From the NCBI RefSeq assembly GCF_028330525.1, contig NZ_JAQMSD010000148.1, positions 62,001 to 126,000 of the forward strand: a stretch of DNA of 64,000 nt. The letters are read 5' to 3'. Made by a program: the position numbers and the translations under genes. The first letter of the stretch is position 1. Each line of letters begins with the position of its first letter. The notes beneath the pieces were generated by a model. The model had not been told where the DNA came from. It ran no database searches and saw only the letters and a program-made list of their open reading frames with translations. Below, one piece after another: positions 12,208-13,906 of the stretch. This DNA is from Spirulina sp. CS-785/01. GTDB taxonomy: Bacteria; Cyanobacteriota; Cyanobacteriia; Cyanobacteriales; Spirulinaceae.

Positions 12208-12459
12208 CACACTTATTCCTCCCATACCCACGTTATATAAACTCATCGGGATACTTTTCTCTCTGGACGTACTAAGTCCCCCAAAAGGTTTCCTCAAATT
12301 GAGCTACAGTTGGTAAAGGGAAATTTTCCGGTAAGTCTCCTGGCTCGTTACTCAATCCATTTGCCCAGTTCTAGCATTAGGGAGATATGTTTGAGCATAG
12401 CCAATGCTGGAAACCCTCACGATTCAAGGCTTATCTCACTGATTACTGATTACTGCTAT

Positions 12460-13035
12460 ATGAAAGAACGTTCGGAACTCTCCAACCCTATCCCCCAGAA
12501 GGTTCAGCAGGTGTCGGCTGATCTCCGTTTGGCTGGACGGATTGGCTTTTGGGTGCAATTAGTCTTGGGGGTAATTTCTACGGTAACTGTTTTATTTGCC
12601 AGTGTCAGTTTTCTGGATAAGGAGAATACATCCACCCAGGGCATTGAATTTGGCGTATTTTGCGCCATTTTGGGGTTAATTGCGTTGGGGGTGGGGATCA
12701 CTTTTTCGTTTCGGTATTTGCGCATTTCTAAGCTACTGCAAAACCCGAATCCGGGGAAACGTCCCAATAAGGCCGATACCATTCGCGTGATTCGTGTGGG
12801 GTTGGTGGTGAATTTGGTGGGAATGTTGTTGACGATTATTGGGGCTGAGGCCAATGTGGGGTTAGTGTTGGCTAAGTCGTTGACGAATCCTCCTGGTGCG
12901 ATCGCGCAAATTAACCCCAATCAATTGGTCAATTCTCTGGATTTACTGGTAGTCCAAGCGAATACTAATACCATTGCTGCCCATTTTGCGGGGATTGTCA
13001 CTTCTTTGATTCTCCTCAATCGCATTACTCGCTAA
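12460..13035 (+). CDS. DUF3611 family membrane protein
   Basis: A 191-residue protein with four predicted transmembrane segments: ~26-48 (FWVQLVLGVISTVTVLFASV), ~63-85 (FGVFCAILGLIALGVGITF), ~115-140 and ~168-188. The motif YLRISKLLQNPNPGKRPNKADTI between helices two and three is typical of DUF3611, a family found in cyanobacteria and plastids. I start at the ATG at 12460 (MKERSELSNP), which gives the usual family length; the frame is open 50 codons further upstream but that part does not resemble relatives. Function is unknown; a thylakoid or envelope location is inferred from the plastid homologues. Confidence 0.82.
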   Translation: MKERSELSNPIPQKVQQVSADLRLAGRIGFWVQLVLGVISTVTVLFASVSFLDKENTSTQGIEFGVFCAILGLIALGVGITFSFRYLRISKLLQNPNPGKRPNKADTIRVIRVGLVVNLVGMLLTIIGAEANVGLVLAKSLTNPPGAIAQINPNQLVNSLDLLVVQANTNTIAAHFAGIVTSLILLNRITR

Positions 13036-13171: not shown

Positions 13172-13315
13172 TTATTTTTTCATTTTTTCATCCTGCTTGC
13201 GTCGTCTGCGATCGCGCCACTCAACAGCGGATAAATAGACAATCCCCCCACTAATCACAATGAGTAAAGCGATCGCTGTCACAAACAGTAGATCGAGTGT
13301 TGAAATATTCTCCAT
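13172..13315 (-). CDS. 47-residue single-helix membrane protein following petN
   Basis: The frame starts with ATG at 13313-13315, immediately after the petN stop codon with no base between, and runs 47 codons to TAA at 13172. The product begins MENISTLDLLFVTAIALLIV, has one transmembrane helix (~8-30) with a GG kink, and ends in a very basic tail (VEWRDRRRRKQDEKMKK). That shape, a short helix with a positively charged cytoplasmic or stromal end, is typical of small subunits of thylakoid complexes. I do not recognise it as a named subunit. The tight spacing means it is surely co-transcribed and probably translationally coupled with petN. Confidence 0.7.
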   Translation of the reverse strand: MENISTLDLLFVTAIALLIVISGGIVYLSAVEWRDRRRRKQDEKMKK

Positions 13316-13405
13316 TTAAAATCCGTTACGCGCCCACACCACCATTGCAATTGACCAAGTAAATAAAGCCAGTACCGAAACCCAACCTAATGTCAAAATG
13401 TCCAT
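13316..13405 (-). CDS. petN: Cytochrome b6f complex subunit PetN
   Basis: A 29-residue protein, [15 protein letters not shown] followed by [14 protein letters not shown], almost identical to PetN of other cyanobacteria and plastids. It is a single transmembrane helix at the periphery of the cytochrome b6f complex and is needed for complex stability. The length is exactly the family length and the start is ATG at 13405. It heads a two-gene unit with the 47-residue membrane protein, and is divergent from a membrane-protein gene starting at 13484, so both promoters share the 78-base gap. Confidence 0.97.
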
Positions 13406-13483: not shown

Positions 13484-13906
13484 GTGAATAGACCAGAAGA
13501 GCGTATTGAATCTGTCAAAGCCGGATTACTGGGAGCAATTGCCTTTACGGTTGCTCTCAGCGTCCTTGGGAGTCTGAAAGGGATAATCGGACAATTCCCC
13601 TCTCTCTCCACCTCTATGGTGTTATATGGGGGAATTGAGGCTGCGATCGCGCTCTCCATCGGTTTCCTTTTCGGTGTCACCTACCGTTATATTATCCGAG
13701 CCGATCAAAACTCCCATCTCCGAGAAGGGGCCGTTTTTGCCTTCGCCCTCGTCCGCACAGGGACATTCATCGAACAACAAGCGCGAGACACCCTTAATTT
13801 TCTCCCCTGGGTCATTTTTGGTCTAGAAAGCCTCTTTTGTTTCTTCCTCGCCCGTCTCGCCCTCGATATTGCCATAAAACAGCAATGGGTCAAGCCGCTT
13901 CAGTAG
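13484..13906 (+). CDS. Conserved membrane protein, unknown function
   Basis: The 140-residue protein has three or four hydrophobic segments: ~13-34 (AGLLGAIAFTVALSVLGSLKG), ~44-68, ~80-95 (weaker) and ~105-128 (LPWVIFGLESLFCFFLARLAL). The start is a GTG at 13484 without a strong ribosome site. It is transcribed away from petN. The family looks cyanobacterial, but I cannot name it. Its position beside petN hints at thylakoid expression; that is only context. Confidence 0.7.
   Translation: MNRPEERIESVKAGLLGAIAFTVALSVLGSLKGIIGQFPSLSTSMVLYGGIEAAIALSIGFLFGVTYRYIIRADQNSHLREGAVFAFALVRTGTFIEQQARDTLNFLPWVIFGLESLFCFFLARLALDIAIKQQWVKPLQ

Follow-up and report, generated by a model that had tools for sequence, protein, structure and literature searches.

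A phylum-wide one-helix membrane protein gene next to petN that probably helps cytochrome b6f work with photosystem I in cyanobacteria

What is encoded by the short frame that opens immediately after petN in Spirulina sp. CS-785/01, and which complex does its product serve? The parts list of cyanobacterial photosynthetic electron transport is usually taken as nearly complete, and the frame, located in a 64,000-nucleotide stretch of DNA analyzed here (the window), belongs to a phylum-wide gene with neither a family model nor an assigned function. The upstream gene is certainly petN, matching PF03742 in Pfam (E 1.9e-18) and NF011331 in NCBIfam (75.4 bits against a cut-off of 56). Its TAA is followed on the minus strand, with a zero-base gap, by the ATG at 13315 of a 47-codon frame (Table 1), confirming the arrangement described in an earlier, sequence-only reading of this DNA. 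The encoded protein is MENISTLDLLFVTAIALLIVISGGIVYLSAVEWRDRRRRKQDEKMKK. That reading also considered both genes easy to overlook, which is true only in part: petN is modeled in both Pfam and NCBIfam, and sgl0002, the Synechocystis counterpart discussed below, has a long-standing locus tag. No Rfam family came near its gathering score in a search for structured RNA at the petN locus, and promoter and terminator scans, which returned no more than shuffled sequences do, were uninformative. Two genes on the plus strand flank the pair. A 140-residue hydrophobic protein without a Pfam family (13484-13906) is encoded divergently from petN and recurs at this position in 36 of the 165 loci, and a DUF3611 membrane protein gene (12310-13035) is convergent with the pair and is not conserved there in other loci.

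Table 1. Features of the petN locus in the window.
Feature	Position	Strand	Remarks
petN, cytochrome b6f subunit VIII	13316..13405	(-)	29 codons + TAA
47-codon gene, one-helix membrane protein, sgl0002-type	13172..13315	(-)	ATG start abuts petN stop; open frame
Predicted transmembrane segment, residues 8-30	13226..13294	(-)	Hydropathy peak at residues 9-27; S/T-G-G-x-x-Y-L face (22-28)
E-W-R-D-R-R-R-R motif, residues 32-39	13199..13222	(-)	Start of basic C-terminal tail, predicted cytoplasmic

The 47-codon frame is a real protein-coding gene under purifying selection. Across 13 close pairs with frame-shifted controls, which is the comparison that we rely on, pN/pS is 0.14 in frame, while the two shifted frames give 1.2 and 3.7. 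Two other tallies were set aside: one was filtered on low pN and is biased, and one was selected on pS alone, giving a ratio of 0.52 that mixes in saturated distant pairs. Homologues are present at E<=0.01 in 370 of the 390 genomes of the class and in 13/13 genomes of the family to which this Spirulina belongs (f1); a profile search of 36 divergent genomes found the gene in every one. Among the 20 misses, 11 also have no full petN match, which suggests gaps in fragmented assemblies. In others (G038, G100, G193, G302 and G357), an intact or overlapping copy next to petN came up in a profile search, two genomes retain a broken remnant only (G395 and G365), one sequence ends inside petN (G273), and one genome has petN without the small gene beside it (G284). 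The genomes of the phylum sample outside Cyanobacteriia gave one marginal match, with a stop inside (G448, E 7e-4), and no copy was found in the phage records and viral contigs searched. The gene is as widespread as petN, and the two occur together throughout the class, also in the Gloeobacter-like genomes of f28. The sequence-only reading had named a lack of coding constraint and a lack of conservation downstream of petN as the results that would count against it, and both the constraint and the conservation are present. It is barely credible that so short a frame yields no functional protein, as a chance frame or a regulatory leader, given the in-frame ratio, the conservation of the same residues across the class, and the separate and different disabling lesions, described below, that occur only where photosynthesis is lost.

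The usual neighbor of the small gene is petN; a single lineage has petE in that place. Among 165 distinct copies, 152 lie immediately downstream of petN in the same orientation, at a median spacing of 15 nt; 132 of these 152 lie within 50 nt, and 7 overlap petN. The start codons of these linked copies, picked by rule, are GTG in 76, ATG in 73 and TTG in 3. The tight coupling proposed from the window alone is thus real there, with its gap of zero, but the exact zero is one state of a spacing that varies across relatives. In most cyanobacteria, petN and the small gene would be co-translated. The remaining 13 copies mostly lie next to genes with no evident link or common theme. In two loci of one genus (L225 and L227), the gene instead follows the plastocyanin gene, petE, on the same strand after a short gap; the neighbor in L225 passes the plastocyanin cut-off (TIGR02656, E 6.6e-37), and L227 carries the same plastocyanin sequence in its own frame. 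The petN and petE linkages both point to the segment that leads from cytochrome b6f through plastocyanin to photosystem I (PSI).

The 47-residue protein contains one hydrophobic stretch, whose best 19-residue window (residues 9-27) has a Kyte-Doolittle value of 2.56, and its net charge is -2 in residues 1-8 and +5 in residues 31-47. A one-helix protein with a basic tail, as first proposed, is borne out by this single hydropathy peak and by the charge of the C-terminal part. An AlphaFold2 model consists of a single continuous helix (residues 6-46) with a mean pLDDT of 91.4. The window protein shows the pattern that is near-invariant across relatives, in which the helix is followed by a G-x-x-Y-L-T/S-x-x-E-W-R-D-R-R-R motif. 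Conservation is high both in the predicted transmembrane segment (G24 91%, Y27 100%, L28 96%) and in the tail (E32 85%, W33 93%, R34 91%, D35 98%, R36 95%, R37 96%, R38 95%). By the positive-inside rule, the tail is predicted to be on the cytoplasmic side of the membrane. No Pfam or NCBIfam family covers the protein, and neither the single sequence nor the profile has a credible relative in the PDB.

A counterpart in Synechocystis sp. PCC 6803 has been listed before. The gene sgl0002 (49 aa) starts 42 nt after sml0004 (petN) and is annotated as hypothetical (PMC5126843, Table 2). One of our relatives (L035) has exactly this length and gap. In a meta-analysis of 756 microarrays, sgl0002 fell into a 43-gene cluster whose members nearly all belong to photosystem II (PSII), PSI, b6f, and the phycobilisome, and its single hydrophobic domain and its position by sml0004 were also remarked upon (PMC4770689); a link to photosynthesis was therefore already suggested in 2016. 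The window gene and sgl0002 share their strand, their position after petN, a similar length and one predicted hydrophobic domain. On these features of position, length and topology, we take sgl0002 to be the probable Synechocystis counterpart. The gene itself is thus already known, without an assigned function, and what is new here is a natural experiment in reduced genomes.

Four single-contig genomes of one genus (G365, G395, G437 and G438; 2.5-3.1 Mb) look like the spheroid bodies of rhopalodiacean diatoms. In all four, psaA/psaB as well as the genes for CP43/CP47 are absent or full of stops, petN is intact, and the small gene is broken. The lesions differ from genome to genome: a stop at codon 2 with small deletions (G395), a one-base deletion with an 11-base insertion (G365), a lost start with deletions (G438), and indels with a frameshift (G437). 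The gene is intact in the free-living relatives G359 and G435. One of the endosymbionts (G365), the only one for which this set is shown, has full-length, stop-free petA, petB, petC, petD, and petM in the 85% of its sequence that was read; petG was not found in that portion. Rhopalodiacean endosymbionts are reported to have lost both photosystems, while their thylakoids and respiratory electron transport remain. The categories of lost functions given in PMC12903740 do not include b6f. The small gene is thus retained together with PSI, and the four genomes with petN but no working PSI carry it as a pseudogene. This pattern of decay predicts that the gene matters for the photosynthetic, PSI-coupled use of b6f and not for its respiratory use. 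These endosymbionts lost many photosynthesis genes together, and the profile cannot separate PSI from functions related to chlorophyll or plastocyanin.

A core b6f subunit is expected wherever the complex is kept, and the four pseudogenes beside intact petN genes do not agree with such a role. The small protein resembles PetG, PetL, PetM, and PetN in size, in having one helix, in its gene neighborhood and in its predicted N-out orientation, but it matches none of them in sequence, is dispensable where pet genes are kept, and is absent from solved b6f structures. An overlooked and loosely bound ninth structural subunit could still be argued from the petN linkage and from a size class and predicted orientation like those of the small subunits. 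We consider it very unlikely, since the gene is dead in the four genomes that keep petN, one of them with the pet set described above, and no PDB chain matches it, whereas cyanobacterial PetN chains do match. PetN chains are found in 9 to 13 cyanobacterial b6f entries (Synechocystis 7r0w/7zxy, 2zt9/4h44/4ogq, 1vf5, and others). The profile search gave no match in the cyanobacterial b6f structures of the same PDB library, which does not hold chains of unknown residues.

A factor for PSI assembly or stability that is merely co-transcribed with petN would account for a gene that tracks PSI, rather than b6f or PSII, in the reduced genomes, and assembly factors need not appear in solved structures. 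In addition, the gene upstream of one copy of the Pseudanabaena type belongs to the enoyl-CoA hydratase family and resembles menB. However, the dominant linkage across the phylum is to petN and the second is to petE, with none to psa genes in the loci read, and we regard this explanation as unlikely.

Cytochrome b6f binds one chlorophyll a. The protein might help to place this pigment, or a carotenoid, into the complex, or it might couple pigment supply with b6f biogenesis, and in either case would become useless once chlorophyll is no longer made. This fits the linkage to petN, and the phyletic pattern that it predicts is the same as that for PSI: the gene is lost in genomes whose chlorophyll pathway is missing or damaged (PMC5638926) and kept in the UCYN-A-like genomes described below. 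In the published counts, ten of ten chl genes are dysfunctional in EtSB and one of ten is impaired in RgSB (PMC5638926). The death of the small gene in the RgSB-sized G395, despite nine of ten chl genes being reported intact, argues weakly against a role in pigment insertion or supply, and the petE linkage in one lineage is not what such a role predicts. The chance that it is correct appears low.

Two further genomes (G403 and G404; 1.49 and 1.44 Mb) look like UCYN-A. Both have intact psaA/psaB and petN and no intact CP47/CP43 pair; the long CP43/CP47-type match in G404 is a 347-residue frame that resembles an IsiA/Pcb-type antenna. The small gene is open in both, directly after petN, and selection acts on it, as seen from the pN of 0.08 versus a pS of 0.48 in the helix. 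Retention without PSII is thus documented in one lineage, the UCYN-A-like genomes. According to PMC6315102, PSI in UCYN-A probably works together with b6f and NDH-1, with cyclic flow included. The tails in these two genomes (L191 and L192) read MDRHSSYFQKQNEKNKL or MDRYGRYSQKQSEENKF, and the W-R-D-R-R-R motif is gone. Erosion of the tail in this one PSII-less lineage hints that the helix and the tail have different partners, and the protein may, for some of its role, depend on more than PSI.

These genomes also bear on whether the protein could belong to PSII or the phycobilisome, perhaps as a half-length relative of PsbZ. The first transmembrane helix of PsbZ (Ycf9) is likewise a hydrophobic helix followed by an x-Y-x-x-x-x-W motif. 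Among 24 members, 4 give a weak match to the PsbZ model (best E 7.8e-5) and 2 to Ycf9; erosion of the tail motif where PSII is missing would also agree with a PSII partner. However, PsbZ has two helices, no basic tail and a different phyletic pattern, and the small gene occurs in f28 genomes without any PsbZ match above the cut-off. The weak HMM matches failed in a profile-profile comparison (hhalign probability 5.3%, E 0.0073, one comparison), and the small protein has one helix (6-46) and one hydropathy peak in place of the two-helix architecture. A PSII-specific protein is expected to be lost with PSII, and here the gene is open and under purifying selection in G403 and G404, which have no intact CP43/CP47. 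As for the phycobilisome, the gene occurs in small, Prochlorococcus-type f16 genomes, a type that is not known to have phycobilisomes. Membership in PSII or the phycobilisome is highly improbable.

The best reading is that the protein is neither a core b6f subunit nor a part of PSII, and that it probably helps the cytochrome b6f complex to work with PSI; the molecular step is inferred. Since it is not needed by b6f as such, is not tied to PSII alone, and persists with PSI, an accessory role at or near b6f is suggested, all the more so as the protein is in no solved complex, although PetN is. We put at roughly 0.55 the probability that this conserved one-helix protein is a non-core accessory, and not a stoichiometric subunit, in PSI-coupled electron transport through b6f. 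The coupling to b6f proposed at the outset is supported by the distribution of the gene, its linkage to petN and the in-frame constraint, and the protein may lie in the thylakoid, as was also proposed. The initial list of candidate partners (b6f, NDH-1 and the photosystems) can be narrowed, as the protein is dispensable to a b6f kept without photosystems, persists with PSI in the absence of PSII, and is linked once to plastocyanin. PetP and PGR5-like proteins are non-core regulators around b6f and PSI. The small protein would be similar to them in being an accessory tied to the photosynthetic rather than the respiratory use of b6f; no sequence relation to them was found within the Pfam, NCBIfam, and PDB searches.

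An accessory of this kind would serve photosynthetic electron transport, including cyclic flow, that passes through b6f to PSI. Its N terminus would face outward into the lumen, with the basic E-W-R-D-R-R-R tail on the cytoplasmic side. The G-G-x-x-Y-L face may pack onto a further helix, either close to b6f or in the space between b6f and PSI, while the tail may bind an acidic partner or lipid head groups at the cytoplasmic face. As a docking, regulatory or assembly factor, the protein could adapt b6f to the delivery of electrons to PSI by plastocyanin or cytochrome c6. A more elaborate version, possible if rather unlikely, is a component of two parts, in which the helix is needed wherever b6f feeds PSI and the cytoplasmic E-W-R-D-R-R-R tail only where the chain is also supplied by PSII; this component would then be a switch or tether that shares b6f between respiration, cyclic and linear flow. 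How one pool of b6f serves these three processes in cyanobacteria is a long-standing question, and the protein may be part of the answer.

Several loci have unusual arrangements. In five filamentous, Oscillatoriales-type loci (L084, L094, L100, L107 and L117), the gene has moved behind a gene for a protein of ∼560-600 residues. In two small f16, Prochlorococcus-like loci (L197 and L198), the C terminus of petN is altered (W-G-R-N-G-D-G-T-I-D) and overlaps the start of the downstream gene. In L246 (G130:C4:527500-532500, positions 1728-2945), three copies surround one petN: two identical direct copies lie within 422-base repeats (99.8%), and an inverted copy that bears a stop is located between them.
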